Assembly: GCF_024448335.1 (NCBI RefSeq)
Contig: NZ_JAMOHM010000004.1
Span: 124,001 to 188,000 of the forward strand
Origin: Stutzerimonas frequens
GTDB lineage: Bacteria > Pseudomonadota > Gammaproteobacteria > Pseudomonadales > Pseudomonadaceae
Reading direction: 5' to 3'
DNA: 64,000 nucleotides
Shown: one piece after another, positions 1 through 52,496 of the stretch
How the letters are laid out: each line of letters starts with the position of its first letter
Position numbering within the stretch: the first letter of the stretch is position 1
Made by a program: the position numbers and the translations under genes
The notes under the pieces: model-generated
Seen by the model: the letters and a program-made list of their open reading frames with translations, nothing else
Database searches by the model: none
Told to the model about the DNA's origin: nothing

Positions 1-823
1 CAGCACGCTGGGCCTCTTGAATTCGTGCATTGAGCTCAGCCAGTTGAGGATTGCCACCGAAGATACGAGCCTGCAGCTCAGCCAAGGTCGGCACTGATGC
101 AGGCAGAGCAGGCCAACCGGCGGGCTCCGCCAGCGGCGAGTTCGCAGGGCGCGCCAAGATGCCGTTCAACCGCGCCGCCGTGCCGCGTCGGTCGCGTTCC
201 AGCGTCAGCAGCTCGCTCTGCAGACTGGTGTGCTCGGTCTGAGCCTTGATCACGTCCTGTTGCGGCGCAAGCCCCACTCTGTAGCGAGCTTGGGCAATAC
301 TCTCAAGCTCATCCACCAGCGCCCGCAGCTCCTCGGTGACCTGGATGGCTGCGTGGGCATACTGGTATTCGTTGAAGGCAAGCTTGACGAGACTCCTGAG
401 CTCGACTCGGCTCAGGCGCTCGCGGGCCGCTGCCTGCTCGGCGCCCGCCTCTGCGATCTCGCGAGCAAGCCCCCGCTTGCCGCCAATAGGAAAAGTCTGA
501 CGGAACGCGTAACGTGTGCTGCCAACGCCGCTGGGCGATAGGCTCGGGTCGTCGCGGGCGATGCCCATTTCCTCAAAAGTGAGCATCGGGTCCGGGAGCG
601 CACCGGCTACATCGGGACGCTCCCAGGCGGCCTGCCTCTCATGCCCGACAGCCCGGAGCTCTGGGCTCTGCCGTTCAAGCAGGTCTAGCAGCGGAGGCAA
701 CGTGGCGCCAAGCTCGGCTGACCCTGGCGAAGCCTGCGCGCCGCTGCTCAGAGCAAGGCCTAGGATGACGGGTGCTAGCAGCCCCCAACTGCGGACGGGC
801 AGCGGCTGAACGATCCAGTTCAT
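1..823 (-). CDS. TolC-family outer membrane efflux protein (CusC/CzcC-like), partial
   Basis: An open frame runs from the ATG at 823 to the left edge of the window without a stop, so the 3' part is missing. The start is preceded by AAGGAG. The first ~30 residues form a signal peptide (VRSWGLLAPVILGLALSSG, then AQA). The mature part has the outer membrane factor signature: an N-terminal helix (LLDLLERQSPELRAV), the GALPDPMLTFEEMG stretch, the FRQTFPIGGKR strand and long Ala/Glu/Arg-rich helices. Such proteins form the outer channel of RND metal efflux pumps of the Cus/Czc type. The RND and adaptor genes would be expected further left. The start overlaps the stop of a small upstream ORF (ATGA), which suggests translational coupling. 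Confidence 0.85.
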   Translation of the reverse strand, partial: MNWIVQPLPVRSWGLLAPVILGLALSSGAQASPGSAELGATLPPLLDLLERQSPELRAVGHERQAAWERPDVAGALPDPMLTFEEMGIARDDPSLSPSGVGSTRYAFRQTFPIGGKRGLAREIAEAGAEQAAARERLSRVELRSLVKLAFNEYQYAHAAIQVTEELRALVDELESIAQARYRVGLAPQQDVIKAQTEHTSLQSELLTLERDRRGTAARLNGILARPANSPLAEPAGWPALPASVPTLAELQARIFGGNPQLAELNARIQEAQRA

Positions 824-975
824 AGAATCTCCTTACTGCAGTGCCGGTCCCGTTGATTGCAGCAACGACAACTAGAATATTCGAGGACTTCGGCTTGCGC
901 ACCACGCCAGTCATGAGCGGAGAGCGGAAACGGGTGTGCCGACCAGGCGCGATATTTGATCAAGTCATTCATCAT
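820..975 (-). CDS. small ORF coupled to the TolC-family gene
   Basis: A 51-residue ORF begins with two successive ATG codons (975 and 972) behind a GGAG at a good distance. Its TGA overlaps the ATG of the downstream outer membrane factor gene. The product has a Cys cluster (SSCRCCNQRD) near the C-terminus and no signal peptide. I do not recognise a family. The good ribosome binding site, the ATGA overlap and the CopR-type box upstream at 1090 favour a real leader or small metal-binding peptide. The short length means it could also be only a translated leader. Confidence 0.4.
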   Translation of the reverse strand: MMNDLIKYRAWSAHPFPLSAHDWRGAQAEVLEYSSCRCCNQRDRHCSKEIL

Positions 976-1089
976 GTTTAACTCCGAAGCACGCAAATTT
1001 CGGCACAAGGGAAAGCTTGGACCCGTTTATGAGCGAGCTATTGTTTGGCTTTATTGCAGATCAGACCTGTCGTTCATATAACTTAAACT

Positions 1090-1103
1090 TTACATTTATG
1101 TCA
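1090..1103. promoter_or_regulatory. CopR/CzcR-type box TTACATTTATGTCA
   Basis: Matches TTACA-N4-TGTMA, the direct or inverted half-site layout used by Pseudomonas heavy-metal OmpR-family regulators. It lies between the divergent cusC-like operon (minus) and the Met-rich/oxidoreductase operon (plus). It could serve either. Confidence 0.55.
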
Positions 1104-1273
1104 GTTACCTAAACTAACATATTTTCAGCGTACTACTCGCAAAACACCTGCTATCTCCGCCGCCGCAAACCACAAATAACCTGCTACCTCCTCTTCAAAA
1201 TCAATACAACTATTTCACCAACAAACGTGAAAATGTAATGCACAAGTAAGGTTTACGACAGCTTCTTCTCTGT

Positions 1274-1292
1274 AGGCTATTAGTAATAGCCT
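1274..1292. promoter_or_regulatory. inverted repeat AGGCTATT-AGT-AATAGCCT
   Basis: A perfect 8-bp inverted repeat with a 3-nt centre, about 65 nt before the first gene of the plus-strand operon. It could be an operator or an mRNA hairpin in the 5' leader. The rest of 976-1358 holds the CopR-type box at 1090 and no visible gene. Confidence 0.4.
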
Positions 1293-1358
1293 GATCTGTA
1301 AGGTAGTTTTTCCTACGCCCACAGCCAAAGTCAGAAAAAAAACCATTAGGAGGTTGTC

Positions 1359-1865
1359 ATGAGACCGCACCGACGCACACCCCTCGCTCCAATTTGCTTC
1401 GTGGGAATACTCCTCGCTGGGACGACGCTCGCTGATGACGACATGCACAACAAGAACGCCATGCCTAGCCCAATTGGACAGCAGCCCACCAGCACGCCAT
1501 CGGCGCACGCTACCGATCCGAAGTCCTCTGCTCCTCAGAATACGCTTGCAACGCCCGATGCCATGGCCACGCACATGGAGGAGATGGCAGCCATGATGCG
1601 CCAAAAGGGGCAAGCCATGGAGGCCATGGGCCGACAGATGCAGGAAGGCAGCATGCAGATGCATCAACAGGCCATGGCGATGAAGACTGGCGACGCCTCT
1701 GCGCATCAGGGCATGGACATGTCTGCCACGATGCAGCACATGCAGCAGATGAATGAGGACATGAAGCACTGCGAGATGCAGATGCAGAGGGTTGACGCCA
1801 CCATGCAGAAGATGGATTCGAGCATGGGTGGCGGTATGGCTAAGAAGAAGATGGGCCACATGTAG
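1359..1865 (+). CDS. secreted Met-rich putative copper-binding protein
   Basis: A 168-residue protein with an AGGAGG ribosome binding site just before the ATG and an N-terminal signal peptide (ICFVGILLAGTTLA, cleavage near residue 26). The mature chain is dominated by Met, Gln, His and Lys: about 29 Met residues, many as MxxM, MxxxM or MH pairs (EEMAAMMRQKGQAMEAMGRQ, MQHMQQMNEDMKH), probably a helical rod. It has one Cys. This composition is typical of periplasmic Cu(I)-binding chaperones or sponges such as CopM/PcoE-like proteins. No catalytic motif is visible. It is 14 nt upstream of the membrane oxidoreductase gene, so it is most likely the first gene of that operon. Its role as the metal-binding partner of the reductase is inferred. 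Confidence 0.75.
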   Translation: MRPHRRTPLAPICFVGILLAGTTLADDDMHNKNAMPSPIGQQPTSTPSAHATDPKSSAPQNTLATPDAMATHMEEMAAMMRQKGQAMEAMGRQMQEGSMQMHQQAMAMKTGDASAHQGMDMSATMQHMQQMNEDMKHCEMQMQRVDATMQKMDSSMGGGMAKKKMGHM

Positions 1866-1879
1866 CGGAGGCCGGCGCG

Positions 1880-4072
1880 GTGCTAACGGAAGACTTCGTA
1901 CGGTGGAAGCGAGTCGCCGCTGCAGCCACGCTGGCGATGCTGCTAGCTCCCGGAACTGCTGGCGCTCAGTCGGCTGCTGATCTACACGCAGCTTATTTGC
2001 AAGGCAAGGTCGGCTACACCACGGCTGCGCAGCTGGTCGCTGCCGGCACGGCATCTGCCCAGGGCGGCGGCTCGATGGGTGGTGTGCCGATGGGCACCAC
2101 GCCGGCGGCTGGCGTGCCGATGGGCGACGACGATCACGCCGCGCATCATCCGGACAAGGCCGGAAGCATGGCGGTACCGCAGCCGGCGCCAGCCGATGGC
2201 ATGCCGGCGCAAAGCAGCAGCTCGATGAACGGCATGCCGATGAGCGCCACACCGCCGGCTGACGCATCGGCGGGCGATGACGATCACGCCGCGCATCACC
2301 CGGACGCGACTGCCAGCATGCCGGCTTCGAGTGGTGCATCGATGGCCGGTTCCATGGGCGGCATGATGGCCGGTTCCATGGGCGGCATGATGGACGACAT
2401 GATGCGCGGCTGCCGCGGAGACGAGTGCGGTCGGGATCGGCGCCTCAACAAGCTGCTGTATCCGCAGCTGATGGCGCTACCGGATCTACCGCCGGAGCGG
2501 CGCGCGAGCGTTGAGCAGCTCGCCCACCACCGGATGCACGAAGGGATCCAGCTATTGGCGTCCCTGTCGTCGGAGGCGTCGCACGCGGTCCAGCGCAACG
2601 ACTACGGCGGCCTGCAGGAAGCATCCGACCGCATGCGCGTGGCCTGGGGCGAATTCGACAGCGGCTTGTCGGCCTACCGCGCACTGGCCGAAGGACAGGC
2701 GCCGCGGGGGATCGCGCTGGCGTGGTTCCGGCGCGAGATGAACCTGACCGATCCCCTGACCACGGCCCCGGCGCACGGCGTCTTCGGCCTGTCGGGCTTC
2801 CACTACTTCACGATGGCGTTGCTGCTGGCCTTTGCGCTGCTGGCCGCCTGGATGTACGTGGCGCGAACCCGACGCACGAATGCGGTCCTCGCCACGTTGC
2901 GCACCGGGGCACCGGTGCCTCCGGCCCCCGCCGCTGCGCCTCGTTCCGGTGTGGCGCCGGTCCCCGCGGCGTCCGTGTCTCCGGGCGTGCCGGCCGAGGG
3001 CGAGCCGCAGGCACGCGCACCCGTGTCCACCATGGGCGGCTGGGTGGGCAAGTTGCGGGTCGCACGCGTCTTCCAGGAGACGCCCAAGGTCAAGACGTTT
3101 CGGCTGGCGCCAGTGGAGGGCGTGGGTGCGCTGCCGTTCGAGTTCGAGCCCGGCCAGTTCCTCACGCTTTCGGTGCATTCAGGCGGGAACCAGGTCAAGC
3201 GCTCGTATTCGATCGCTTCATCGCCATGCTGCCACGGCTGGTGCGACCTGACGGTCAAGCACGAAAGCGGCGGCATCGTCTCGGGTTACCTGCACGAGCA
3301 GGTGAAGGAAGGCGATCTCCTAGATGCGTCCGGCCCCTACGGCCGCTTCACCTTCCGCGGCGTCGAGTCCGACAGTGTCGTGTTCCTGGGCGGCGGCGTC
3401 GGCATCACGCCGCTGATGAGTTCCATCCGCTACCTGACCGACCAGAGCTGGAACGGCCGGATCGACCTGGTCTACGCCTGCAAGGACCTGGAAAGCGTGA
3501 TCTTCCGCGACGAGCTGAACCAACTCGCCCGCCGGCATCCGAACCTGCATGTGTCCATCGTGCTGAGCGACGAGTCATCGGCGGCATGGACCGGCCCGCG
3601 TGGGTTCATCACCGCCGAACTGCTGGGGCAGATTCCGCAGATCCGTTCGCGCCGCATCCACTTGTGCGGTCCGTCGGTGATGATGGACGCGGTCCGCAAC
3701 GAACTGGGCAAGCTGGGCATCGACCTGGCGTCGGTTCATTCCGAGCTGTTCCTGAGCCCCTCCAGGACAGTGCCTCCCGGCCTGGAGGTGTCGGCGGGCG
3801 ACACGGCGACGGCCGTCACCTGCAGCTTCGAGCGGTCCGGAAAAAAGGCGCCGCTGGCGGCCGGCCAGACCGTTCTCGAGGCCGCCGAAGAGGTCGGCGT
3901 TCCGATCGAATATGCCTGCCGGCAGGGTTACTGCGGCCTCTGCAAGATCAAGCTGCTGTCGGGCGAGGTCACCATGGACGTGGACGACGGTCTGACGCCA
4001 CTCGATCGTTCCTCGGGCGTGATCCTGGCCTGCCAGGCGAAAGCGTCGGCCGATATCTCGGTGGATGCGTAG
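1880..4072 (+). CDS. Met/His-repeat periplasmic domain fused to FAD/NAD(P)H/2Fe-2S reductase
   Basis: A 730-residue protein starting at GTG 1880 behind AGCGGAGG. Layout: signal-like segment 1-30; low-complexity Met/His region ~60-175 with two copies of GDDDHAAHHPD and tandem MAGSMGGM repeats; helical region ~185-285 with HHRMH; membrane helix ~306-328; Pro/Ala linker; FAD domain ~390-490 with RSYS (441-444); NAD(P)H domain with GGGVGITP (504-511) and LCGPSVMMD; plant-type 2Fe-2S ferredoxin domain with Cys 680, 685, 688 and 718. With the N-terminus in the periplasm, the flavin and iron-sulphur domains lie in the cytoplasm. They would pass NAD(P)H electrons to the adjacent b-type cytochrome. 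Stop and next start touch (TAGATG). The fusion of a metal-binding periplasmic head to a reductase is unusual. Confidence 0.8.
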   Translation: MLTEDFVRWKRVAAAATLAMLLAPGTAGAQSAADLHAAYLQGKVGYTTAAQLVAAGTASAQGGGSMGGVPMGTTPAAGVPMGDDDHAAHHPDKAGSMAVPQPAPADGMPAQSSSSMNGMPMSATPPADASAGDDDHAAHHPDATASMPASSGASMAGSMGGMMAGSMGGMMDDMMRGCRGDECGRDRRLNKLLYPQLMALPDLPPERRASVEQLAHHRMHEGIQLLASLSSEASHAVQRNDYGGLQEASDRMRVAWGEFDSGLSAYRALAEGQAPRGIALAWFRREMNLTDPLTTAPAHGVFGLSGFHYFTMALLLAFALLAAWMYVARTRRTNAVLATLRTGAPVPPAPAAAPRSGVAPVPAASVSPGVPAEGEPQARAPVSTMGGWVGKLRVARVFQETPKVKTFRLAPVEGVGALPFEFEPGQFLTLSVHSGGNQVKRSYSIASSPCCHGWCDLTVKHESGGIVSGYLHEQVKEGDLLDASGPYGRFTFRGVESDSVVFLGGGVGITPLMSSIRYLTDQSWNGRIDLVYACKDLESVIFRDELNQLARRHPNLHVSIVLSDESSAAWTGPRGFITAELLGQIPQIRSRRIHLCGPSVMMDAVRNELGKLGIDLASVHSELFLSPSRTVPPGLEVSAGDTATAVTCSFERSGKKAPLAAGQTVLEAAEEVGVPIEYACRQGYCGLCKIKLLSGEVTMDVDDGLTPLDRSSGVILACQAKASADISVDA
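2123..2305 (+). repeat. in-gene repeat pair coding GDDDHAAHHPD
   Basis: Two near-identical 33-nt copies (2123-2155 and 2273-2305) encode the same acidic/His-rich peptide within the Met/His region of the reductase fusion. The segment between them repeats the Gly-Met-Pro theme. They probably arose by internal duplication of a metal-binding unit. Confidence 0.7.
2342..2389 (+). repeat. 24-nt perfect tandem repeat coding MAGSMGGM
   Basis: Two exact head-to-tail copies of a 24-nt unit (2342-2365 and 2366-2389) encode MAGSMGGM twice. Such a repeat is prone to copy-number change in frame. Confidence 0.85.
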
Positions 4073-4762
4073 ATGCGCAACCAGGATCGCATCATCGCGA
4101 CGATCATCTTCTTGATGCTGGTGGTCCTGTGGCTGGGTTTCCTGGTGCACCGCTCTTCCTTCTTCGCCGGAAGCCTCCTGGGTGGCGTGTTCGGCGTCGT
4201 AGGCGCGGCGTTCATGCTCGTCCCGCTCACCTACACCGTAATCAAGCGCAGCGCTACGCTGCGCCGCGCATTCACCAGGAAGCATGGCTTCGGCGCATTG
4301 CTGCAGGCGCACGTCTATTTCGGCTTGGTAGGCGCGCTGTTGGCCATCCTCCATAGCGGGCACAAGTTCCAGAGTGCGCTCGGCGTCGCGCTGACGGCAT
4401 CGATGCTGCTGAGCGTGCTCACTGGGTTCATCGGCCAGCATTACCTGCGCTACGTCGCGGAGAACATCCGCGAGAAGAAGGCGCAGATCGACGGGCTGTG
4501 GCGCCTTCTGGATGGGCAGTACTGGGCCTACGCGCAAGGACCAACAGCGGGCGTTGCCGGTACGCCCAAGGCCAGCGCCGAACTGCTGCCACTGGCATCC
4601 GCCGCCGCCGATCTGCAGTACTCGATCCAGTTCCAGGAGCGGGTGCGCAGGCTGTTCAACGCCTGGCTGTCGGCACACATCGCGTTCTCGATCATCTTCT
4701 ATCTTCTGCTGGCGTTGCATATCTGGGCTGGCATCTACTTCGGGTTGCGGTGGTTCAGATGA
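4073..4762 (+). CDS. membrane b-type cytochrome (ferric-reductase-like)
   Basis: A 229-residue integral membrane protein that starts directly after the stop of the reductase gene. About five hydrophobic segments are visible (residues ~8-26, 35-57, 78-95, 103-120, 200-225). His80 and His94 in one helix pair and His202 and His216 in another have the same 14-residue spacing. This is the pattern of bis-heme b electron carriers of the ferric reductase/NADPH oxidase type. The gene order places it as the membrane relay between the cytoplasmic flavin/2Fe-2S protein and the periplasmic heptaheme cytochrome. It overlaps that next gene by ATGA. I know no gene name for it; heme binding is inferred from the His pairs. 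Confidence 0.7.
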   Translation: MRNQDRIIATIIFLMLVVLWLGFLVHRSSFFAGSLLGGVFGVVGAAFMLVPLTYTVIKRSATLRRAFTRKHGFGALLQAHVYFGLVGALLAILHSGHKFQSALGVALTASMLLSVLTGFIGQHYLRYVAENIREKKAQIDGLWRLLDGQYWAYAQGPTAGVAGTPKASAELLPLASAAADLQYSIQFQERVRRLFNAWLSAHIAFSIIFYLLLALHIWAGIYFGLRWFR

Positions 4763-5562
4763 GTCGAAAGGGAAAGATCCTCGCCGCGCTGCTCGCGGTC
4801 CTGGCGCCGGTGTCGGCAGTCGCACTGTGGACATACCTTCCGCAAATGCAGCGCGCCGCGACGTGGCAGAACATGGCCTCTCCGGGCCCCCTGTCCAGCG
4901 CACATGCGTTTCTCAAAGAGGACTGTGCGGCGTGCCACACGCCGGTGAAGGGCGTGGAGGACGCGACTTGCGTGGCCTGCCATGCAAACGAGACCGTCCT
5001 GGTCCAGCGACAACCGACGGCATTCCATGCCGACATCGCCGGCTCGAACAACTGCGTGGCCTGCCACAAGGAACACGACGCCGGCCGCAGCCTGCGTGGT
5101 ATGGACCATGCGGCTTTGACCGACATCATCGTGCGATGGCTCGATCGGGCCCCGGAGGGTCATGAGGGGGCGGTGCTGCTCGCGCACCTCAAGGCACACC
5201 GGCCCGAGGCGCTGCCGGGCAACCTCTCGCTTGCCAACGGCATGACTTACAAGGAGACGCTGCTGGACTGTGCGAGCTGCCACAAGACCACCGACCCGCA
5301 CGTCCAGGTCTTCGGAAACGACTGCGCGACATGCCACGGCACGACCACATGGTCGATTGCCGAGTACCGGCATCCACCGCCGAGTTCCACCGAGTGCGGC
5401 CAGTGCCACCTCGCGCCGCTCAGCCACTACAAGGAGCACTTCGGAATGATGTCCAAGCCGATAGCGGGTGTCAGGAATGCGGAACCTGAGCAGTGCTATC
5501 TCTGCCACCAGACCACCTCATGGAACGATATTCGGGGAATAGGCATCTATGACCACCATTGA
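4759..5562 (+). CDS. membrane-anchored heptaheme c-type cytochrome
   Basis: A 267-residue protein whose ATG overlaps the TGA of the b-type cytochrome gene. An N-terminal hydrophobic segment (ILAALLAVLAPVSAVALW) anchors or exports it. Seven CXXCH heme c motifs follow: CAACH, CVACH, CVACH, CASCH, CATCH, CGQCH and CYLCH, with many extra His residues as distal ligands. The spacing resembles multiheme cytochrome c3/c7-like proteins. Its position after an NAD(P)H reductase and a b-type membrane protein indicates the periplasmic exit of an electron transfer chain. The terminal acceptor (Cu(II), Fe(III), another periplasmic oxidant) cannot be read from the sequence. Confidence 0.85.
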   Translation: MSRKGKILAALLAVLAPVSAVALWTYLPQMQRAATWQNMASPGPLSSAHAFLKEDCAACHTPVKGVEDATCVACHANETVLVQRQPTAFHADIAGSNNCVACHKEHDAGRSLRGMDHAALTDIIVRWLDRAPEGHEGAVLLAHLKAHRPEALPGNLSLANGMTYKETLLDCASCHKTTDPHVQVFGNDCATCHGTTTWSIAEYRHPPPSSTECGQCHLAPLSHYKEHFGMMSKPIAGVRNAEPEQCYLCHQTTSWNDIRGIGIYDHH

Positions 5563-5573
5563 CGGGTGTTTCT

Positions 5574-5909
5574 ATGAACCTTGAGGCACCTCATGCAGCG
5601 ATTGAGATCGCGGTGATCGGGTTCGAGATTGCAGGGGTGCTCGCTATAACTTTCGGAAGTTTCATAGCGCTCTATCGCTTTTTTTTCAATTACAAAGGGG
5701 CCGCATTGACGGATCGCTCCCGGTCATTACGGCAAGATATTGGCGGCGCGATTGTGCTAGGACTAGAATTCCTCGTTGCTGCCGATGTCATACGAACGGT
5801 TGTAATTGAGCCCTCGCTACGAAACGTTGCAGTACTTGGTTTGATAGTACTTGTCCGAACATTTCTCAGCTACACGCTCCATATGGAAAATAAAAGCCGC
5901 GAGTCGTAG
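5574..5909 (+). CDS. DUF1622 family small membrane protein
   Basis: A 111-residue protein with three hydrophobic segments, matching DUF1622: an N-terminal helix (IAVIGFEIAGVLAITFGSF), then RSLRQDIGGAIVLGLEFLVA with the conserved Arg and Gly-Leu-Glu, then a C-terminal helix. The ATG at 5574 is chosen over an in-frame TTG at 5559 because it removes four unusual residues. The gene follows the cytochrome by 11 nt and closes the operon. The function of DUF1622 proteins is unknown. Its lower GC content than the three preceding genes suggests it may have joined them separately. Confidence 0.7.
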   Translation: MNLEAPHAAIEIAVIGFEIAGVLAITFGSFIALYRFFFNYKGAALTDRSRSLRQDIGGAIVLGLEFLVAADVIRTVVIEPSLRNVAVLGLIVLVRTFLSYTLHMENKSRES

Positions 5910-5924
5910 GCACCCCTCGCGGCT
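5895..5924 (+). terminator. hairpin at the end of the oxidoreductase operon
   Basis: AGCCGCGAG and CTCGCGGCT pair over a 12-nt loop that contains the DUF1622 stop codon. There is no T-tract, so termination is uncertain. Confidence 0.35.
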
Positions 5925-6142
5925 ATGTATGTACTACTAAGCACATCGCTCAGCTGGGCAGTTTCCCCAGACGGCCCCATGCCAGTACCCGCACCGATTC
6001 GCCATAAAAACGGCAAGGCTAGTAACGATTGTATTGCTGAAATGCTTATGACCACCGCCGCACCAGGAGCATGTCTCGGGCTGCGACTACCGCCTCGGAC
6101 TCTTACGTTTATGCAGGCTTCGATGGGTCGATAGGTGGTGTC

Positions 6143-6472
6143 TTATCTCCGACAGTTCGTTCCGGCGACCCGATACTCAACAATCGCCAAATCACCCTTA
6201 GAGTCCTCATAGGTAATTTGGGCCGGCATCACATCGTTGCAGGTCATATCGGTTCGCGTGGTACGAATTACCTTGGCGATGTCCAACTTCATCCCATAAC
6301 GATAATGGACAACTTCGGGAGGCTTCTTTCCGACAGAAGTAGCGTACTCCCGCATAGTATTTTCGTTCGCACGTATCATTTCGCCATACTCGCGATCTGA
6401 GCTACCCTCTGCCAAGGATAATGAGCTCACGCTCATAAAAAACACTGCTGCCGTAATCTTGAAAGCTTTCAT
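6143..6472 (-). CDS. DUF2790 family secreted small protein
   Basis: A 109-residue protein with an AGGAG ribosome binding site and a signal peptide (TAAVFFMSVSSLSLAEG). The body carries the DUF2790 pattern: VVHYRYGMKLDIAKVI, a conserved Cys, PAQITYEDSKGDLAIVEYRV, and a final Cys. The segment after the signal peptide (SSDREYGEMIRANENTMREY) resembles the N-terminus of the copper-induced PtrA-type proteins. Such genes are common in Pseudomonas copper clusters but have no assigned activity. A TTACA-N4-TGTTA box lies 71 nt upstream of the start, the same position as in three other small secreted protein genes in this window. Confidence 0.75.
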   Translation of the reverse strand: MKAFKITAAVFFMSVSSLSLAEGSSDREYGEMIRANENTMREYATSVGKKPPEVVHYRYGMKLDIAKVIRTTRTDMTCNDVMPAQITYEDSKGDLAIVEYRVAGTNCRR

Positions 6473-6543
6473 AACCAGCTCCTAACTTAACGTGTGTGAT
6501 GAAATTATAAGAGCGGCAAGCTGTTACTCATATGACGCGGTAA

Positions 6544-6557
6544 TTACACTGGTGTTA
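6544..6557 (-). promoter_or_regulatory. CopR-type box TTACACTGGTGTTA
   Basis: One mismatch to TTACA-N4-TGTAA, 71 nt upstream of the DUF2790 start codon. The spacing matches the boxes at 8379, 23324 and 45732. Confidence 0.5.
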
Positions 6558-6619
6558 TGAATCAAATTACCCAAGGATTAAGTGGGGCCGGTAGCATTCG
6601 AGCAAGCATAGCCATCCCG

Positions 6620-7482: not shown

Positions 7483-7818
7483 TCATTTATTACCATGTGA
7501 GCGGTTGTTTATTTTGGCTGGCATTCCGCGGAACTCTACCGCGTGAAGTCGCCCGTCTGGAGTACGAATTTTTATTTCATATGGCCTAACATTTCCCTTA
7601 AGTGTGTTATTTATAGCTTTATTATCCGAACGCTCTTTATTCATAGGGGCCACACTCACCACCTCGCCGCGCTTCAGCAGATCCAGCATTACTTGGTGAC
7701 CATCCCCAACAGTGTGATCGTGCCGCATAGCACTTTCTTGTTCCGTGCCGGCGACGGCTGCGAAAGCTGCCGAAATTAGCGAAATCGTCACCAGTGCTTT
7801 ACTAATTTGGTTCATCAT
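7483..7818 (-). CDS. small secreted protein, paralogue 1 of the 'EIKxxTPDGxxHxVEF' family
   Basis: A 111-residue protein with a signal peptide (ALVTISLISAAFAAVAG). The mature part begins ESAMRHDHTVGDGHQVM and ends with RPYEIKIRTPDGRLHAVEFR, the C-terminal hallmark of a family present four times in this window. It shares with the next gene the 10-residue MRHDHTVGDG block. The His residues there and the copper gene surroundings suggest periplasmic metal sensing or binding, but no activity is known to me. It lies 195 nt after the adjacent paralogue in the same direction and has no clear box of its own, so it may be read from that gene's promoter. Confidence 0.65.
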   Translation of the reverse strand: MMNQISKALVTISLISAAFAAVAGTEQESAMRHDHTVGDGHQVMLDLLKRGEVVSVAPMNKERSDNKAINNTLKGNVRPYEIKIRTPDGRLHAVEFRGMPAKINNRSHGNK

Positions 7819-8013: not shown

Positions 8014-8307
8014 TCAGCCGTTTTTAACGCCTACTGGGGCACCGAGAAATTCGACCGAATGGACGACTCCGTCAGGGGTTTTAATTTTAATCTCATACGT
8101 TCTTACATCACTTCCGGACACTGGTGAATTACCCATTGGGGTCACGCTTAGCACTTGCCCGGTTTTTAGCAGATTGACCATCACTTCATGACCATCGCCA
8201 ACAGTATGGTCGTGTCTCATGGGTTGATCGCCTTTATTTGCAGCGATGAGAAAAGGAGATGTAGCGGTTAGAACAAGGGCGATAACGAGCTTTTGCATGC
8301 TTTTCAT
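8014..8307 (-). CDS. small secreted protein, paralogue 2 of the 'EIKxxTPDGxxHxVEF' family
   Basis: A 97-residue protein; the ATG at 8307 has GAGGAAAG in front. Signal peptide ~1-23 (LVIALVLTATSPFLIAA). The mature chain contains MRHDHTVGDGHEVMVNLLKT, VLSVTPMG and RTYEIKIKTPDGVVHSVEF, ending GAPVGVKNG. It is the nearest relative of the gene at 7483 and probably a tandem duplicate. A CopR-type box (TTACATTGGCGTAA) lies 71 nt upstream of the start codon. Confidence 0.7.
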   Translation of the reverse strand: MKSMQKLVIALVLTATSPFLIAANKGDQPMRHDHTVGDGHEVMVNLLKTGQVLSVTPMGNSPVSGSDVRTYEIKIKTPDGVVHSVEFLGAPVGVKNG

Positions 8308-8378: not shown

Positions 8379-8392
8379 TTACATTGGCGTAA
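8379..8392 (-). promoter_or_regulatory. CopR-type box TTACATTGGCGTAA
   Basis: One mismatch to TTACA-N4-TGTAA, 71 nt before the start of the small secreted protein gene at 8307. Confidence 0.5.
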
Positions 8393-14291: not shown

Positions 14292-16055
14292 TTACATTCG
14301 GTCGTCGGCTTGACGCAGTCGTTCCAGAAAACTCTCGGCGTCGGTTTCACCAACCGTGCGAAGGTCCTGCCACTCATCACCACTGGGGGCAAACAATTGC
14401 AGTGCCGGCGGGCCAAACAGCTGGTAGCGATCAAGCAGCGCGCGTTGCTCGGCATCGCTACGCGTCATATCGAAGCGCACCAGCCGGTAATCAGCCAGCT
14501 GTTCGCGCACAGAGGACACTTCGAGTACTTCTCGTTCGATTACTTTGCAACTGATGCACCAGTCGGCGTACCAGTCCAGCAGCAAAGGTTGGCCGGCAGT
14601 TTTCGCTGACAACAGTGCCGCATCCAGGGCTGCTGGGGTGTCCAGGGTCTGCCAGCCGACGGTTGCGCCGATTTGAGGCAAGCCTTGGGCGTCCAGGCGA
14701 CCCAGTGGGCGCAGCGGGTCGGTTTGACCTTGCAAAGCGCCCACCCAACTGCTGATGCCGTAAACCAGCAAGGCCACACCAAGCAACTGGGCAAGCTTCT
14801 GCTTGCCGGGCTTAGGAATAAATTCCAGGGCGCCCAGCCACAACGCAGTGCCAACCGCCAACAGGCCCCACAAGGCCAGCGTCACGGGAGCTGGTAACAC
14901 ACGCTCCAGCAGCCATACAGAGACACCCAGCAACATCAGACCGAAAACCTTGCGTACGCCGACCATCCAGGTCCCGGACTTGGGCAACAAGGCGGCGCCA
15001 CCAGTGGCGAACAACACCAACGGCGCCCCCATGCCCAGACCCAGCGAAAACAGCTTCAGCCCGCCGCCCAGGGCATCGCCGGTGGCGCTGATGTACAGCA
15101 GCGCACCGACCAGTGGTGCTGTCACGCAGGGTGATACAAGCAGGCTTGACAGCACGCCTAGCGTTGCGGCCCCTATCATTGAACCCCCGCGGGTTCGGCT
15201 GGCCAGGCGATCCATTCGTTCGGTAATAAAGCGCGGCATACGCAACTCGAACACCCCGAACATGGCCAGGGCAAATACCGAAAAGAACAGCGCAAAGGGC
15301 ACCAGTAGCCACGGTGACTGCAGGCGCGCCTGCAGGTTGAGGCCAGCTCCGAACATGCCCATCAGCGCTCCGAGCAGTGCGAAGCAGGCAGCCATGGGAA
15401 GTACGTAGGCAAGCGACAGGCGAAAACCTCGTAGCCCACCGAGTTGTCCACGCAGCACTACGCCGGAAAGGATGGGCAGCATCGGCAGCACGCAGGGAGT
15501 GAAAGTCAGCCCCAAACCGGCCAGAAAGAACAGTGCCAGACTTCCCCAGTCCAAGGTCGTTTCCGGTTGCGCAGGCGATACCGGGGGCGAGTTACCGATC
15601 TGAAAAGTGCGCATTTCAGGTGGGTAGCACAGTCCCAGATCGGCGCAGCCCTGGTAGCTCACCTGCAGGGTGAACGGCCTGTTCTGAGGGTTATCAATCG
15701 GTAGTTCTAAGTCCGTAATGCCGTAGAACACCTCGACATCGCCGAAATACTCATCGGTTTTCGGTTCGGCTGCAGGCCATTGCGGGGTGCCGATTGTTAC
15801 TTGCGGATGGTCGCTGTTGAAGGCGAAACGATGTTTGTAGAGGTAATAGCCATCGGCATTTATGAACCGCAGGCGAATACTGTCGGTGTCGGCTTCTATC
15901 AGATCAAGGCCAAAGGCCAGATCCACCGGCAGGAAGTCCTGGCTGTTATTCTGGGGGGCGTTGAACAGGGCCGGCTGTGAGCGAGGCAGATCAAAAATCC
16001 CAGCACTGACCGGCAGTGGGATCAGTAAAAGCAGGCACAGCAAAAGGCGGAACAT
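14292..16055 (-). CDS. dsbD: DsbD-like thiol:disulfide interchange protein
   Basis: A 587-residue protein starting at ATG 16055. Domains in order: signal peptide ~1-19; periplasmic alpha domain with a Cys pair in GCADLGLCYPP (~110-130); an eight-helix membrane domain ~180-420 with the redox Cys of FTPCVLPMLPI and SPCVTAPLVGAL; C-terminal thioredoxin domain with YADWCISCKVIE. It carries reductant from cytoplasmic thioredoxin to the periplasm. In copper islands such copies are thought to protect periplasmic thiols or serve cytochrome and copper protein maturation. It is probably additional to a chromosomal dsbD. Its stop lies just downstream of an IS5 scar. Confidence 0.92.
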   Translation of the reverse strand: MFRLLLCLLLLIPLPVSAGIFDLPRSQPALFNAPQNNSQDFLPVDLAFGLDLIEADTDSIRLRFINADGYYLYKHRFAFNSDHPQVTIGTPQWPAAEPKTDEYFGDVEVFYGITDLELPIDNPQNRPFTLQVSYQGCADLGLCYPPEMRTFQIGNSPPVSPAQPETTLDWGSLALFFLAGLGLTFTPCVLPMLPILSGVVLRGQLGGLRGFRLSLAYVLPMAACFALLGALMGMFGAGLNLQARLQSPWLLVPFALFFSVFALAMFGVFELRMPRFITERMDRLASRTRGGSMIGAATLGVLSSLLVSPCVTAPLVGALLYISATGDALGGGLKLFSLGLGMGAPLVLFATGGAALLPKSGTWMVGVRKVFGLMLLGVSVWLLERVLPAPVTLALWGLLAVGTALWLGALEFIPKPGKQKLAQLLGVALLVYGISSWVGALQGQTDPLRPLGRLDAQGLPQIGATVGWQTLDTPAALDAALLSAKTAGQPLLLDWYADWCISCKVIEREVLEVSSVREQLADYRLVRFDMTRSDAEQRALLDRYQLFGPPALQLFAPSGDEWQDLRTVGETDAESFLERLRQADDRM

Positions 16056-16145
16056 GGGTATCTCGCGGAACAAGAGTTAACGAAAGGCTCCGGACATAAT
16101 TCCGCCTCGCAAGTCAGGAAACTGTCCTGAGCAAGCGAGCCGGAC

Positions 16146-20085: not shown

Positions 20086-20099
20086 TTACATTTTTGTAA
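20086..20099 (+). promoter_or_regulatory. CopR box TTACATTTTTGTAA
   Basis: A perfect TTACA-N4-TGTAA box 65 nt upstream of the copR start, suggesting autoregulation of copRS. Identical to the box at 8716. Confidence 0.7.
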
Positions 20100-20164
20100 G
20101 CTTCTAGATGGCGGCCTCGTTAACCTGCACACTGAGTCGAAACAAACTTTCGGAATCTGCCTGC

Positions 20165-20842
20165 ATGAAATTACTGGTCGCTGAAGACGAACCCAAAACT
20201 GGTTCTTACCTGCAACAAGGACTTACCGAAGCTGGATTTACCGTCGACCGGGTCACGACTGGCACAGATGCGCTCCAATATGCGCTGAGTGAGGTTTATG
20301 ACCTTTTAATCCTTGACGTGATGATGCCAGGGTTAGATGGATGGGAGGTGCTACGCATGGTCAGATCAGCAGGGCACGAAATACCCGTACTGTTCTTGAC
20401 CGCACGTGATGGCGTGGAAGACCGCGTCAAAGGCCTGGAGCTGGGCGCGGACGACTACCTGATTAAGCCGTTCGCGTTCTCCGAACTTCTGGCAAGGGTC
20501 CGGACATTGCTTCGCAGGGGCAGCGGCTCCCCCACCCAAACCACCGTGAAAATTTCAGATCTCGAAGTGGACCTGCTAAAGCGCCGCGCCGTTCGTGCTG
20601 GGAAGCGAATTGATCTGACGGCGAAGGAATTTTCACTGCTGGAATTGTTGATGCGCCGACGCGGCGAGGTGCTTCCGAAGTCTCTGATTGCATCTCAGGT
20701 ATGGGATATGAACTTCGACAGCGACACCAACGTTATCGAGGTCGCGGTACGCCGTCTGCGCGCAAAAGTCGACGACGACTTCGAGCACAAACTGATCCAT
20801 ACCGTGCGTGGCATGGGCTATATGATGGATGCACCGGAGTGA
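20165..20842 (+). CDS. copR: CopR/IrlR-type OmpR-family response regulator
   Basis: A 225-residue protein starting [13 protein letters not shown]. Receiver domain 1-115 with the acidic pocket (EDE), phosphoacceptor Asp in [17 protein letters not shown] and the conserved Lys in [11 protein letters not shown]. Winged-helix DNA-binding domain ~125-222 ([48 protein letters not shown]). Family: heavy-metal regulators CopR/CusR/CzcR that respond to periplasmic copper through the partner kinase. The kinase gene overlaps its stop (GTGA). A perfect family operator lies upstream. Confidence 0.93.
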
Positions 20843-22218
20843 GACTGCGTCACCTTTCGCTGACCGCCCGAATGAGTGTCATGTTCATGTCTGTGGTGGT
20901 TGTAGTTCTCACCATAGCTGGGCTGAGCTTCAATTTGCTTAGCCAGCATCACTTCGAAGTGTTGGATCGGCAGGCCTTGGTGGAGAAGCTCGAATCGACC
21001 AAGAAAATTTTCAATAACGTACGCAGCAGCGCAAACCTTGCTGAGGAGCTACCGCAGTTGCGAGCTCTGCTAGGTGCCCATCATGATTTAGCGGCGACCA
21101 TCTTGAGCGAAGATGGCAGAGTGCTCTTTTCTGATCCCAAGACAGTCGACGTCCCGGAAAGCTATAGGGACGCAGAACAGCAGAATATGTGGGAATGGAA
21201 ATATGCCGGCCGCCTGTATAGAGGATTGACTGCCCGAATCTCGGTAGCAGACCAGCCCGAACCACTTACAGCACTGTTGATTCTTGATGTCACTAACCAC
21301 GCGCATTTCTTTCAGACTTTGCAGCGTTGGTTCGGCGTTGGATTAAGCGTCAGCGCTCTAATTAGTGCTGCGCTTGGCTGGATGGTAGTTAGAAGCGGTC
21401 TCAGGCCTCTGAGGCAAGTTACCCATCTCGCCGCATCGATGTCAGCAAGGTCGTTGCAGGAACGAATGCCGCTTGAACCGATACCGCTTGAGTTACAGCA
21501 ATTGGTTCTGTCCTTCAATGCGATGTTAGATCGCTTGGAAGATGCCTTTGTTCGGCTTTCCAATTTCTCGGCGGACATTGCTCATGAACTGCGAACCCCT
21601 GTTAGCAACCTCATGACCCACACCGAGGTGGTGCTGACCAAAAAGCGGAATATTGATGCTTATGAGGAGAATCTTTACTCCAATCTAGAGGAGTTGAAGC
21701 GTATGTCACGCATTATTGACGACATGCTCTTTTTGGCCAAATCCGACAACGGCTTGATTATTCCCGAACAAGCGTCTATCGAACTAGCTGATGTCGTTGC
21801 TAAACTGCTTGCGTATTACCACTTAGTGGCTGACGAACGCGATATCCGTCTCTCAGTCTCAGGCGCAGGAAATGTGCTGGGAGATAAATTAATGATTGAT
21901 AGAGCGGTCTCCAATTTGTTATCCAACGCGCTGCGTTACACCCCGGTAGGGGAAACTATTTCTGTAACGATTCACGAGGCGGAAAGAACGGTAACCCTCA
22001 GCGTCGAGAATCCCGGAGGGACGATCGAGCCCGAGCACCTGGACAAGCTCTTTTATCGCTTCTATCGGGTCGATCCTGCCCGGCGCGAGGGTAGTCCAAG
22101 CAACGCTGGCCTCGGCTTGGCTATTACCAGATCTATTGTTGAGGCCCATAAAGGCAGAATCTGGTGCACCTCATTAGACGGCGTGACGGGCTTTCACATG
22201 GAATTTCCCCGCCAATAA
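20839..22218 (+). CDS. copS: CopS heavy-metal sensor histidine kinase
   Basis: A 459-residue protein. The start is GTG 20839 ([17 protein letters not shown]), overlapping the copR stop. Membrane helix ~15-37, periplasmic sensor ~38-150, second helix ~155-178, HAMP ~180-235, dimerisation helix with phospho-His in [16 protein letters not shown], ATPase domain with N box [11 protein letters not shown] and G boxes [14 protein letters not shown]. It belongs to the CopS/CusS/IrlS heavy-metal kinases. The periplasmic part contains His residues ([10 protein letters not shown]) that may touch the metal. Confidence 0.92.
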
Positions 22219-22277: not shown

Positions 22278-22291
22278 TTACACGATTGTAA
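22278..22291 (+). promoter_or_regulatory. CopR-type box TTACACGATTGTAA
   Basis: A perfect TTACA-N4-TGTAA match, 112 nt before the Csp-like gene. Confidence 0.6.
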
Positions 22292-49757: not shown

Positions 49758-49886
49758 TGTCGTAGTCACCCGGCCGATATCCGCGCTTATCTAAAGTCAC
49801 GCCGCTTAGCCATCAGCTATCTGGCCGGTTTAGTGCGGCTGAGGAAACGCTATCGACGAAGGGGGCACTGCACTGCAGTGTTGCGT

Positions 49887-51128
49887 ATGTATCAAAAGAA
49901 ACGCTTGTATCTGCTTGCTAGCGGGCTGCTTGGGCTCGGGCTGGCACTAATGTCGCTCGAGGTGGGCGCGCAAGACGGTCTGACACTGGAGCGGGCCGTG
50001 TCCCTTGCGTATGAACGCAACCCAGAATTTTCCGCTGCGCGGTCGGAGATCGGCATCGCAAGCGGTCTGCGCCGCCAAGCTGGGGTTATCCCGAACCCGG
50101 AATTAGGGTTCGAGGTGGAAGACACTCAGTCCGACCGCCAGACCCGCTCAATTACAATCACCCAGTCGATCGAGTTGGGCGGCAAGCGCGGCGCTCGAAT
50201 CGGCGTGGCGGATGCTAATCGCTCGATGGTGGATGCCGATCTCGACCTTCGACGCCAAGGATTACGTGCAGATGTGATCCAGGCATTCTTCGCCGCCCTG
50301 CGCGCCCAAGAAGGCATGCGACTGGCCGAGGCCTCTCTGTCATTGGCCGAACGGGCTGCTAAGGTCGCCGATGCACAGGTCGATGCCGGAAAAGTTTCGC
50401 CAGTGGAGGCGACGCGCGCCGATATGCAACTGGCGACCGTACAACTGGACCTGCGGCGAGCACGCCAGGAATGGGACAACGCTCGACAGATGCTAGCGCG
50501 CCTGCTCGGGACCGACGCACCGGAGTTTGGCAGTTTGCTGGGCAGTTTCGAACACCTGCCAGATGTGCCTAGCGAATCTGCATTATTGGCGCGCGTGCGT
50601 GAGAGTGCCGATATGCGTAGGGCTCTGCGCCAAGTGGCCTTGAGTGAAGCCGAGCTGGGGCTTCAGCGAAGCCAGCGCTACCCGGACATAAGCGTCAGTA
50701 TCGGTAGCCAGTACGACGAAATCGAGCGTGAGCGCGTCAACCTCGTCGGCCTCTCTGTTCCGCTGCCTTTATTCGATCGTAACCAAGGCAATGTTCTGGC
50801 GGCCGCACGGCGGGCGGAGCAGGCGCGTGATCTTCGTAATGCGGCAGAGCTGCGCGTTCGTGCGGAGATCCAGCAGGCCCTTCGCGACTGGCGTACCGCA
50901 CGTGCAGACGTCGAGGAAATACGCAACCGGATACTGCCGGCAGGACAGCGAACCGTGGAAGCGGCCACACGTGGTTTCAGTCTTGGCCGCTTCGCGTTCC
51001 TCGACGTGCTCGACGCACAGCGTGCGCTGATAGATGCACGCACGCGCTATCTGCAGTCATTGCAAGCCGTGGTCGACGCCTGGGCGCGTATCGAGCGGCT
51101 GTACGGACCTACCACTACCTTCGAATGA
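49887..51128 (+). CDS. czcC: CzcC outer membrane efflux channel
   Basis: A 413-residue TolC-family protein starting at ATG 49887 (MYQKKRLYLLASG), signal peptide to GAQ. Two repeats of outer membrane factor structure: LTLERAVSLAYERNPEFSAA, VIPNPELGFEVED, ITQSIELGGKRGARIGVADA, AGKVSPVEATRADMQLATVQ, ISVSIGSQYDEIERERVNL, SVPLPLFDRNQGN and GFSLGRFAFLDVLDAQRALI. It forms the exit channel of the Czc pump. First gene of czcCBA; 41 nt to czcB. Confidence 0.93.
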   Translation: MYQKKRLYLLASGLLGLGLALMSLEVGAQDGLTLERAVSLAYERNPEFSAARSEIGIASGLRRQAGVIPNPELGFEVEDTQSDRQTRSITITQSIELGGKRGARIGVADANRSMVDADLDLRRQGLRADVIQAFFAALRAQEGMRLAEASLSLAERAAKVADAQVDAGKVSPVEATRADMQLATVQLDLRRARQEWDNARQMLARLLGTDAPEFGSLLGSFEHLPDVPSESALLARVRESADMRRALRQVALSEAELGLQRSQRYPDISVSIGSQYDEIERERVNLVGLSVPLPLFDRNQGNVLAAARRAEQARDLRNAAELRVRAEIQQALRDWRTARADVEEIRNRILPAGQRTVEAATRGFSLGRFAFLDVLDAQRALIDARTRYLQSLQAVVDAWARIERLYGPTTTFE

Positions 51129-51169
51129 CCGAAACGCCGCCATTACGTATTGGCGGTGGGGGAGCTTGC

Positions 51170-52477
51170 ATGAAAAAACAGACGGGAATCGCTCTGGCGG
51201 TCGCTTTGGTACTGCTGACCGGCGTTGGCGTAAAACAGGGCTTCGTTCTTGAGGCGCAGGCCAGCGATAACAAGGCTGAGCACGCCGAGGATGGCCACGC
51301 GCATGAGGATGGAGAAAGCGGTCACGAGGAATCTGAGAACGACCATGGGGACGAAGACGGTCATGACGCTGAAGGCGATGGCCACGGCCATGGTGACGAA
51401 AGCGGTCATGGCGGTGAGGAGGACGAGCACGGCAACGAAACGCATGCCGAAGGTGAGATTGAGCTTTCCGAAGAGCAGATACGTGCCGCAGGCATTCAGC
51501 TAAGCAAGGCCGGACCGGCTGAAATCGGCTCGTCTGTATCTTTGCCGGGCGAGCTGCGTTTCGACGAAGACCGTACCGCACATGTCGTGCCCCGTGTGGC
51601 CGGCGTTGTCGAATCGGTTTCGGTCAACCTGGGTGACCAAGTGAAGAAGGGCCAGTTGCTGGCGGTTATCGCCAGCGAGCAGCTGTCCGAGCAGCGTAGT
51701 GAGCTGGCTGCCGCCGAGCAGCGCCTCCGGCTGGCTCGCACCTTGTTCGAGCGTGAGCGCACCCTATGGCAGGAGCGTATCTCTGCAGAACAGGACTATT
51801 TGCAGGCCCAGCAGAGCCTGCGCGTAGCAGAAATCGACTTGCGTAATGCCCAAGAAAAAACACGGGCGCTGGGCGGCGGAAGTGGCGCAGGCGTAGGCAA
51901 CCGCTACGAGCTGCGCGCACCTTTCGATGCAGTGGTCGTCGAGAAGCATATTGTGCTGGGCGAGCGTGTGGATGAAACGACCAGCGTCTTCACACTGACT
52001 GACTTGTCGCGGGTTTGGGCCACGTTCAGCGTACCTGCCCGTGATTTGATGCGCGTAACCGTCGGCCGAGAAGTCGAAGTTGTTGCCGGCGAGCTAGGCG
52101 TGCGAACAATGGGGAAGGTCGCCCATGTGGGCAGCCTGCTGGGCGAGCAGACGCGTGCCGCGACAGCCCGCGTGACCCTGGCCAACCCCGATGGGGCTTG
52201 GCGTCCCGGTCTTTTCGTGACGGTCCGAGTTAGCGCCGACGGACGTAGTGTTCCGGTCACGGTTCCAGTCGAGGCGGTCCAGACCGTCGAAAACGCGCCG
52301 ACGGTTTTCGTTCGCACGCCGCACGGCTTCCAGGCGCACCCGGTTTCGCTGGGCCAGCGCGACGAAAATCGCGTGGAAATTCGTGACGGATTGCAGGCCG
52401 GCCAACAGATCGCGACCGCTGGCAGCTTCATCCTGAAATCCGAACTCGGCAAAGGCTCCGCCGAGCACGTTCACTGA
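51170..52477 (+). CDS. czcB: CzcB periplasmic adaptor with His/Asp/Glu-rich N-terminus
   Basis: A 435-residue membrane fusion protein; ATG 51170 follows GGGGGAG. Signal anchor ~1-22. Residues ~35-100 are a His/Glu/Asp/Gly region (HAEDGHAHEDGESGHEES, DGHGHGDESGHGGEEDEHG) that should bind several divalent ions. Then the adaptor core: VSLPGELRFDEDRTAHVVPR, VESVSVNLGDQVKKGQLL, a coiled-coil hairpin (LSEQRSELAAAEQRLRLART), YELRAPFDAVVVEKHIVLGE, FTLTDLSRVWATFSVPARDL and VTVPVEAVQTVENAPTVFVR. It links CzcA to CzcC. Confidence 0.93.
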   Translation: MKKQTGIALAVALVLLTGVGVKQGFVLEAQASDNKAEHAEDGHAHEDGESGHEESENDHGDEDGHDAEGDGHGHGDESGHGGEEDEHGNETHAEGEIELSEEQIRAAGIQLSKAGPAEIGSSVSLPGELRFDEDRTAHVVPRVAGVVESVSVNLGDQVKKGQLLAVIASEQLSEQRSELAAAEQRLRLARTLFERERTLWQERISAEQDYLQAQQSLRVAEIDLRNAQEKTRALGGGSGAGVGNRYELRAPFDAVVVEKHIVLGERVDETTSVFTLTDLSRVWATFSVPARDLMRVTVGREVEVVAGELGVRTMGKVAHVGSLLGEQTRAATARVTLANPDGAWRPGLFVTVRVSADGRSVPVTVPVEAVQTVENAPTVFVRTPHGFQAHPVSLGQRDENRVEIRDGLQAGQQIATAGSFILKSELGKGSAEHVH

Positions 52478-52496
52478 TCCTCCGGATACCTAACTC

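Follow-up and report, generated by a model that had tools for sequence, protein, structure and literature searches.

Copper resistance through the Cop, Pco, and Cus systems acts by Cu(I) oxidation, binding, and efflux, and we know of no such system with an NAD(P)H-driven transmembrane chain. In proteins of the FRE/NOX/STEAP type, a cytosolic NAD(P)H/flavin domain passes electrons to b hemes held by His residues in two membrane helices and on to an outside acceptor (plan in PMC3591440; cupric role in PMC7558416). CcoG is a membrane-bound bacterial Cu(II) reductase with two tetranuclear Fe-S clusters and an unknown donor, encoded with cbb3 oxidase genes, and the account that describes it also lists a cupric reductase activity of Escherichia coli NDH-2 and another, uncharacterized, in extracts of copper-resistant Pseudomonas (PMC7558416); the view in an earlier note on the present DNA, by which the copper systems known so far work through oxidation or efflux, was therefore too strong. 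Here, we analyze a 64,000-nucleotide stretch of Stutzerimonas frequens DNA (the window; G000:C4:124001-188000 in our numbering), in which five genes at 1359-5909 encode a candidate copper-induced, inner-membrane, NAD(P)H-dependent metalloreductase that would probably reduce periplasmic Cu(II), a reading to which we give an even chance.

The five genes, P1 to P5, lie on the plus strand and fill the interval with no real gaps between neighbors: P3 starts one base past the P2 stop codon, and P3 and P4 overlap by 4 nucleotides (nt). The earlier note had described a cluster of four touching or overlapping genes; the cluster stands, but the count does not, since P5, a DUF1622 gene, lies in the same interval.

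1359-1865, plus strand: P1, secreted Met-rich protein of 168 amino acids (aa) with 29 Met (17%)
1880-4072, plus strand: P2, reductase with an exported Met/His head, 730 aa, GTG start (Pfam PF00970, PF00175, PF00111, and PF08030)
4073-4762, plus strand: P3, b-type membrane cytochrome with His pairs (alignment of 18 rows)
4759-5562, plus strand: P4, heptaheme c-type cytochrome with 7 CxxCH motifs (Pfam PF22113, PF14537, and PF14522)
5574-5909, plus strand: P5, DUF1622 membrane protein (Pfam PF07784, E 1.8e-23)

The signal peptides of P1 and P2 were judged by eye, without a predictor, and ATG 5574 is a likelier start for P5 than TTG 5559. Predicted sigma-70 promoters and terminators in 700-6600 did not rise above those in shuffled sequences and hence are uninformative about operon limits.

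The gene order put forward in the earlier note recurs widely. The P2-P3-P4 module was found in 35 lineages, defined as clusters at 85% P3 identity, across Pseudomonadota, Bacteroidota, and Planctomycetota, and 18 of these lineages include a plasmid record. The lineages derive from 59 frames, which remain from the 72 P3-type frames among the loci collected once 12 distant frames and a truncated one (L069) are removed; the window copy is counted twice, as the window and as L036. Judged from this recurrence, the module is not a product of chance, because its order, head, and heme number persist in relatives whose P3 is as little as 32% identical. When the 18-row P3 alignment was used for searching, strong matches (E<1e-50) were present in at least 9 of 397 phylum genomes and at least 2 of 370 class genomes, the source genome included in both, in at least 3 of 337 genomes in the class of G350, and in at least 4, at least 4, and at least 2 of 119 genomes in three families; the sets are not disjoint, and within the larger of them some of the first-look candidates were scored, so that the counts are lower bounds. 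A single P3 protein used as the query matched 6 of 58 relatives, its own genome included. Among the 72,556 plasmid records of PLSDB, 52 match P3, with hosts that include Sphingobium, Alteromonas, Spirosoma, Legionella, Variovorax, Methylophaga, and Bradyrhizobium; the module is also found in Methylocystis, and the Planctomycetota loci are metagenome-assembled genomes (MAGs). Identical or near-identical P3 sequences come mostly from Stutzerimonas, but a Pseudoxanthomonas MAG and a Lysobacteraceae MAG carry copies that are 99.6 to 100% identical, which therefore points to recent transfer between genera. The copper-resistance region is a mobile island: the window itself carries a TraI_2 relaxase gene, two insertion-sequence genes, and a Tn3 transposase gene.

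P2 begins with a signal peptide (by eye), followed by HAAHH motifs, a Met-rich linker, a helical hairpin, and one membrane helix, and ends in an FAD/NAD(P)H/2Fe-2S reductase. FAD_binding_6, NAD_binding_1, Fer2, and NAD_binding_6, the ferric-reductase NAD domain, all scored above the Pfam cutoffs; the Fer2 Cys residues follow the plant-type ferredoxin pattern, C-x4-C-x2-C-x29-C from residue 680, and the nearest solved chains to the C-terminal part are 5ogx, 1krh, and 2eix. The head carries H-x2-HH in 30 of the 31 lineages that could be assessed among the 35 (L033 is the exception), compared to a median of 0.2% in shuffled heads, and across lineages the linker has 11.2% Met versus 2.3% in the reductase part. 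By comparison, in the sister P2-like proteins of L046 and L053, the head is missing and the reductase is preceded by nothing but a membrane anchor. An AlphaFold model of the hairpin and membrane helix had a predicted local distance difference test (pLDDT) score of 73.5, and Foldseek returned no match to the head model at E<=0.001. Spy-like ancestry of the head was considered and found no support: LTXXQ/Metal_resist matched 0 of 9 members, and hhalign gave a probability of 0.1% against four Spy-like upstream proteins. Part of the head in the window is duplicated in tandem, as follows.

2057-2324, plus strand: two 118-nt copies in the P2 head, 75% identical, which carry both DDDHAAHHPD motifs

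This duplication doubles the HAAHH motif, and the repeat number varies among copies in other Stutzerimonas and Lysobacteraceae.

The gene directly upstream of P2 is often Met rich. In 13 of 16 plasmid records, the annotated gene in this position encodes at least 5% Met, with a range of 4.9 to 17.4% apart from zwf in L033; the check covered 16 of the 20 annotated regions and omitted L030, L060, L066, and L069. The frame picked by script at this position has at least 7.5% Met in 18 of 35 lineages, a figure biased upward by the choice of the richest Met/His frame, and the script erred or found nothing in several lineages, such as L023, L024, and L030. In L074 and L075, which are sister lineages represented by one genome, the upstream gene encodes CusF (E 5e-13 and 7.7e-15). 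P1 itself scored above the cutoff for no Pfam family. The small exported Met-rich proteins upstream of P2 in L034, L059, L065, and L068 have a common C-terminal tail, for example, PMPMKDDM/PMKDM.

P3 has five membrane-type helices (by eye) and two H-x13-H pairs, His80/94 and His202/216, each a step of 14 residues; all 18 aligned rows, one of them from the window, keep His26, 80, 94, 97, 202, and 216 without exception. In NOX2, a member of the ferric reductase superfamily, the heme ligands are His101/115 in the third membrane helix and His209/222 in the fifth (PMC3591440), and by this comparison the P3 pairs follow the FRD/NOX plan of two helices with heme His residues 13 to 14 residues apart. 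P3 scored above the cutoff for no Pfam or NCBIfam family, and a search of the PDB found no sequence relative. The AlphaFold model, built from 11 sequences (pLDDT 77.6), places helices at 3-25, 35-59, 73-94, 102-155, and 164-228. Long helices fill the VIA fold list obtained with this model, and the absence of an FRD chain among the rows listed says little; the fold searches of P3 and of the P2 head, which gave no significant match, neither support nor refute a kinship with ferric reductases. A 742-aa frame in L070 that looked like a P2-P3 fusion was rejected as a run-on, of which the P3 portion alone is real. In L046 to L057, distant P3 relatives precede 8-, 10-, 21-, or 24-heme cytochromes without copper markers, and these proteins make up a broad b-cytochrome/multiheme superfamily.

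P4 has an N-terminal membrane anchor (by eye) and matches MtrC/MtrF_II-IV and cytochrome c3/c7 in Pfam. Seven CxxCH motifs are present in 32 of 33 lineages and six in the remaining one; the other two lineages, in which no frame has at least six, were left out of the count. Beyond the motifs, all 33 lineages share His49, 90, 106, 117, 181, 205, 223, and 227, as well as Met115 and Met230, and 32 of them also share His267. With this many His residues, all seven hemes could have bis-His ligands, the arrangement of electron carriers, and P4 may therefore be a carrier and not necessarily an open-site enzyme of the NrfA or OTR type; with seven regular CxxCH motifs and at least eight spare invariant His residues, an open site would not be required. 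In Stutzerimonas stutzeri KOS6 (L013:7285-8169), P4 is split into two frames, the first with three CxxCH motifs, probably as a broken copy or an assembly error. A gene of the DUF1622 family, to which P5 belongs, lies no more than 10 kb from the module in 16 of the 35 lineages.

The locus resembles FRE, NOX, and STEAP in plan, but its flavin domain is a separate protein with an additional 2Fe-2S cluster and an exported copper-type head, its exit is a heptaheme cytochrome, and its b protein has no Pfam ferric-reductase match. By analogy, the module would act like FRE or STEAP yet is built from different parts, and the chance that it is the first of a separate class is real. With CcoG it would have in common membrane-bound Cu(II) reduction by means of Fe-S clusters, the role proposed here for the module; unlike the module, CcoG as described in PMC7558416 is not mentioned to have a b heme, a multiheme c cytochrome, or an NAD(P)H domain. 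No Fer4-type domain was found in P1 to P5 at E<=1 in Pfam, so clusters of the CcoG type are absent. In MsrPQ (YedYZ), a b-type membrane protein of the FRD superfamily likewise passes electrons to a periplasmic partner (PMC3591440), but that partner is a molybdoenzyme, whereas the module exits through a heptaheme cytochrome; MsrP is not named in the 20 annotated regions, in which no hidden Markov model search was aimed at it. Also comparable are the headless FNR/cytochrome b/octa- or decaheme modules of L046 and L053, which have a distantly homologous P3, a P2-like reductase, and a multiheme neighbor but differ in lacking the Met/His head and copper markers and in heme number, and which stand apart on the P3 tree at 100/100. 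Among the matches listed in the open-license literature, we found no published description of the module.

Copper genes surround the module in the window, and the module shares with Cop, Pco, and Cus the same islands, the same type of regulatory box, and Met-rich periplasmic proteins, even though those systems, unlike the proposed reductive module, work by Cu(I) oxidation, binding, and efflux.

2-823, minus strand: divergent outer-membrane efflux protein (OEP; Pfam OEP), cut by the window edge
1090-1103, no strand assigned: CopR/CusR-type palindrome TTACA-N4-TGTCA, between the divergent OEP gene (start 823, minus strand) and P1
8716-19405, no strand assigned: copper genes (Pfam), with a CopR-type box, DUF305/CopM-like, cytochrome c, CopB, CopA, DsbD-like, DUF411, and heavy-metal P-type ATPase
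20108-22218, plus strand: CusRS/CopRS two-component system (Pfam CusS and Response_reg), with a CopR-type box at 20086

An RND permease gene lies farther left of OEP, at C4:118781-121963. The DUF305/CopM-like gene matches the NCBIfam CopM model below its cutoff. A DsbD-like thiol reductase gene at 14292-16073 (minus strand), between CopA and DUF411, could encode a periplasmic repair partner. Two small secreted paralogues with MRHDHTVGDGH in common are encoded at 7483-7818 and 8014-8307 (minus strand), without Pfam matches, and directly ahead of the second, at 8379, is a near match to the CopR-type box. Beyond the first CusRS pair are insertion-sequence genes, TraI_2, a second CusRS-type pair, OprD, a cation-efflux gene, and the Tn3 transposase gene, and a second efflux set (OEP, CusB type, and RND) occupies 49833-55661.

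This setting recurs in relatives. CopB (Pfam PF05275) is present in 13 of 23 module-bearing genomes and absent from 10; within 10, 20, and 35 kb of the module it was found in 8, 11, and 13 of those 13 genomes, whereas copy number and genome size would predict 0.15, 0.29, and 0.51. The 13 genomes represent nine lineages, five of which have CopB within 10 kb; in G1303, which has two modules, the one on C244 was scored, and the contig with the other, C272, has no CopB. A BLAST search with marker proteins found at least one copper marker within 10 kb in 29 of 35 lineages, at least two kinds in 17, and at least three kinds in 15, while no marker was found at any of 13 control loci, of which 12 are distant b-cytochrome loci and the last is another multiheme locus of the same genome. 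The marker search is partly circular, since many of its copper markers were drawn from the surveyed loci, and lineages with a single marker are weak cases; the CopB test, which uses an external Pfam model, is the stronger of the two.

The binding sequence published for Pseudomonas CopR and E. coli CusR is TGACA-N4-TGTCA (PMC12428095). The pattern TKACA-N4-TGTMA occurs at 12 sites in the 4.38-Mb genome, all within an 86-kb copper region (C4:125090-210488), and its reversed control at none. It joins the published sequence with what we take to be the Pseudomonas form, TTACA..TGTAA, and was widened after the window matches were known. Nine of the 12 boxes lie no more than about 350 bp upstream of the start (for boxes outside the window, of the open frame) of a copper or efflux gene, the response regulator gene, or the module; the other three, at 22278, C4:200471, and C4:201373, are unassigned. 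From the box at 1090-1103, the distance is 262 bp to P1 and 274 bp to the divergent OEP gene; the box is a putative CopR/CusR-type element in a promoter region that the module and the divergent efflux genes have in common. When the 535-bp gap was shuffled, a site with at most one mismatch arose in about 3% of trials, so the single box is modest evidence and the genome-wide clustering the strong part. Overall, the copper link of the module is strong. The earlier note centered on a chain that crosses the membrane from NAD(P)H to the periplasm and is linked to copper-binding modules, and sequence comparison across relatives supports this claim: domains, ligands, gene order, conservation, copper colocation, and a CopR-type box are all seen in the sequences, with the head kept in nearly all assessable lineages and CusF upstream in two sister lineages.

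These features are consistent with the following mechanism. Copper would induce the genes, and P2, P3, and P4 would act as one complex in which electrons move outward. On the cytosolic side, P2 would use hydride from NAD(P)H to reduce its FAD, which would release single electrons to the 2Fe-2S cluster; P3 would relay them through two stacked b hemes, placed with an inner one on His80/His202 and an outer one on His94/His216; and P4, anchored at the periplasmic face, would spread them over its seven c hemes. Oxidized copper held by the P2 head together with the partner encoded upstream, which is P1 here and a Spy-like protein or CusF in relatives, would thereby become Cu(I), to be handled by Met-rich sites and Cus-type efflux. 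By established potentials, electrons would run downhill from NAD(P)H to Cu(II) but not from Cu(I) to NAD+. Among the candidate acceptors, which are Cu(II), another metal, a protein, and a respiratory sink, Cu(II) is probably the best.

Several observations weigh against this mechanism. CopA, encoded next door, is expected to oxidize Cu(I), so that with a Cu(II) reductase as its neighbor copper could be caught in a futile cycle; it is conceivable that the reductase acts when CopA cannot, at low oxygen, or that it loads Met-rich proteins with Cu(I) for Cus efflux. The box at 1090-1103 may serve the divergent efflux genes instead of, or together with, the module. Six of 35 lineages have no copper marker within 10 kb, although two of these have CusF upstream. 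P3 does not match the Pfam ferric-reductase transmembrane family at E<=1, and its model, built from few sequences and containing two very long helices, gave no Foldseek match at E<=0.001. The earlier note had considered a tie of homologous clusters to another acceptor, and this is seen in part: an NiFe hydrogenase adjoins the module in 3 of 35 lineages (Alteromonas/Salinimonas, L071, and L074), by three separate changes on the P3 tree, but all three (L063 for Alteromonas) retain the Met/His head. The hydrogenase-linked loci are L028:4200-18720, L038, L071, and L074; in L028, a CopR-type box is located ahead of the run of genes, at 4200-4213. In 16 of 35 lineages, the 10 kb around the module include genes for the pentose-phosphate pathway, fermentation, or nucleotide salvage, drawn from zwf, gnd, tal, phosphoketolase, adhP, aldehyde dehydrogenase, thymidine phosphorylase/PRPP synthetase, and DUF3141. 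L033, L044, L045, L059, L060, L064, L066, and L067 have zwf, gnd, tal, phosphoketolase, thymidine phosphorylase and PRPP synthetase, DUF3141, or ATP synthase genes. Together with the hydrogenases, these neighbors suggest a wider redox role, and one idea is that they supply reductant (NADPH, NADH, or H2) to one periplasmic hub.

By another reading, with copper as just one of its clients, the module would be a general redox conduit or outlet, which would reoxidize NAD(P)H or exchange electrons with a periplasmic hydrogenase or oxidase under oxygen or energy stress, with the copper head as a sensor or gate and copper genes as cotravelers. The hydrogenase and carbon-metabolism neighbors, as well as the distant sister modules without a head, fit this explanation, but the head persists even beside hydrogenase, with CusF upstream in L074, copper association is the commoner one, and a CopR-type box adjoins the window module; we consider it rather unlikely, though worth keeping in sight. 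Alternatively, the electrons could serve the repair of copper-damaged periplasmic proteins with oxidized Met or disulfides, in a manner functionally akin to MsrPQ or ScsB/DsbD. Met-rich partners would be targets of oxidation, YedZ (MsrQ) falls within the FRD superfamily (PMC3591440), and the DsbD-like gene is at hand, although the DsbD marker matched in the window only, and none of the 20 annotated plasmid regions, for which the gene tables are incomplete, names a methionine sulfoxide reductase. To our knowledge, moreover, a heptaheme relay is not part of any known thiol or methionine sulfoxide repair system, and we regard this explanation as distinctly improbable.

Mobility of the region raises the question of whether a respiratory module merely travels with copper islands, its head binding some other metal. 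TraI_2, the insertion sequences, Tn3, and near-identical P3 across genera are what such hitchhiking would leave, but colocation with CopB recurs in divergent lineages and a Met-rich or CusF partner lies directly upstream, and the likelihood of this explanation is low. Least probable of all is the acquisition of copper or iron, in which Cu(II) would be reduced before uptake, as with Fre1 or Dcytb in eukaryotes: the architecture is like that of FRE metalloreductases, the Methylocystis module has no copper markers nearby, L065 has a divalent metal cation transporter gene immediately downstream, and L063 has a CopD family gene at its edge, but the neighbors are mostly export and detoxification genes and the box is of the CopR/CusR type.

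The copper-induced metalloreductase may also be one member of something larger. Tentatively, and with less confidence than in the metalloreductase itself, we propose a widespread new bacterial class in which copper is detoxified reductively through a heptaheme hub onto a Met/His sponge fused to the reductase, fed by NAD(P)H, boosted by the pentose-phosphate pathway, or by H2, so that copper outside the cell would gate or draw the flow of cytosolic electrons. P3 represents a membrane cytochrome family with no Pfam or NCBIfam match above the cutoff and no sequence relative in the PDB, and the question that it raises with its partners would be directly testable in three genes. If the metalloreductase reading is true, copper resistance would gain a reductive arm from a horizontally spread NAD(P)H chain whose reductase bears a metal-binding head and which belongs to a copper regulon, and copper stress would be tied to NADPH and hydrogen metabolism.

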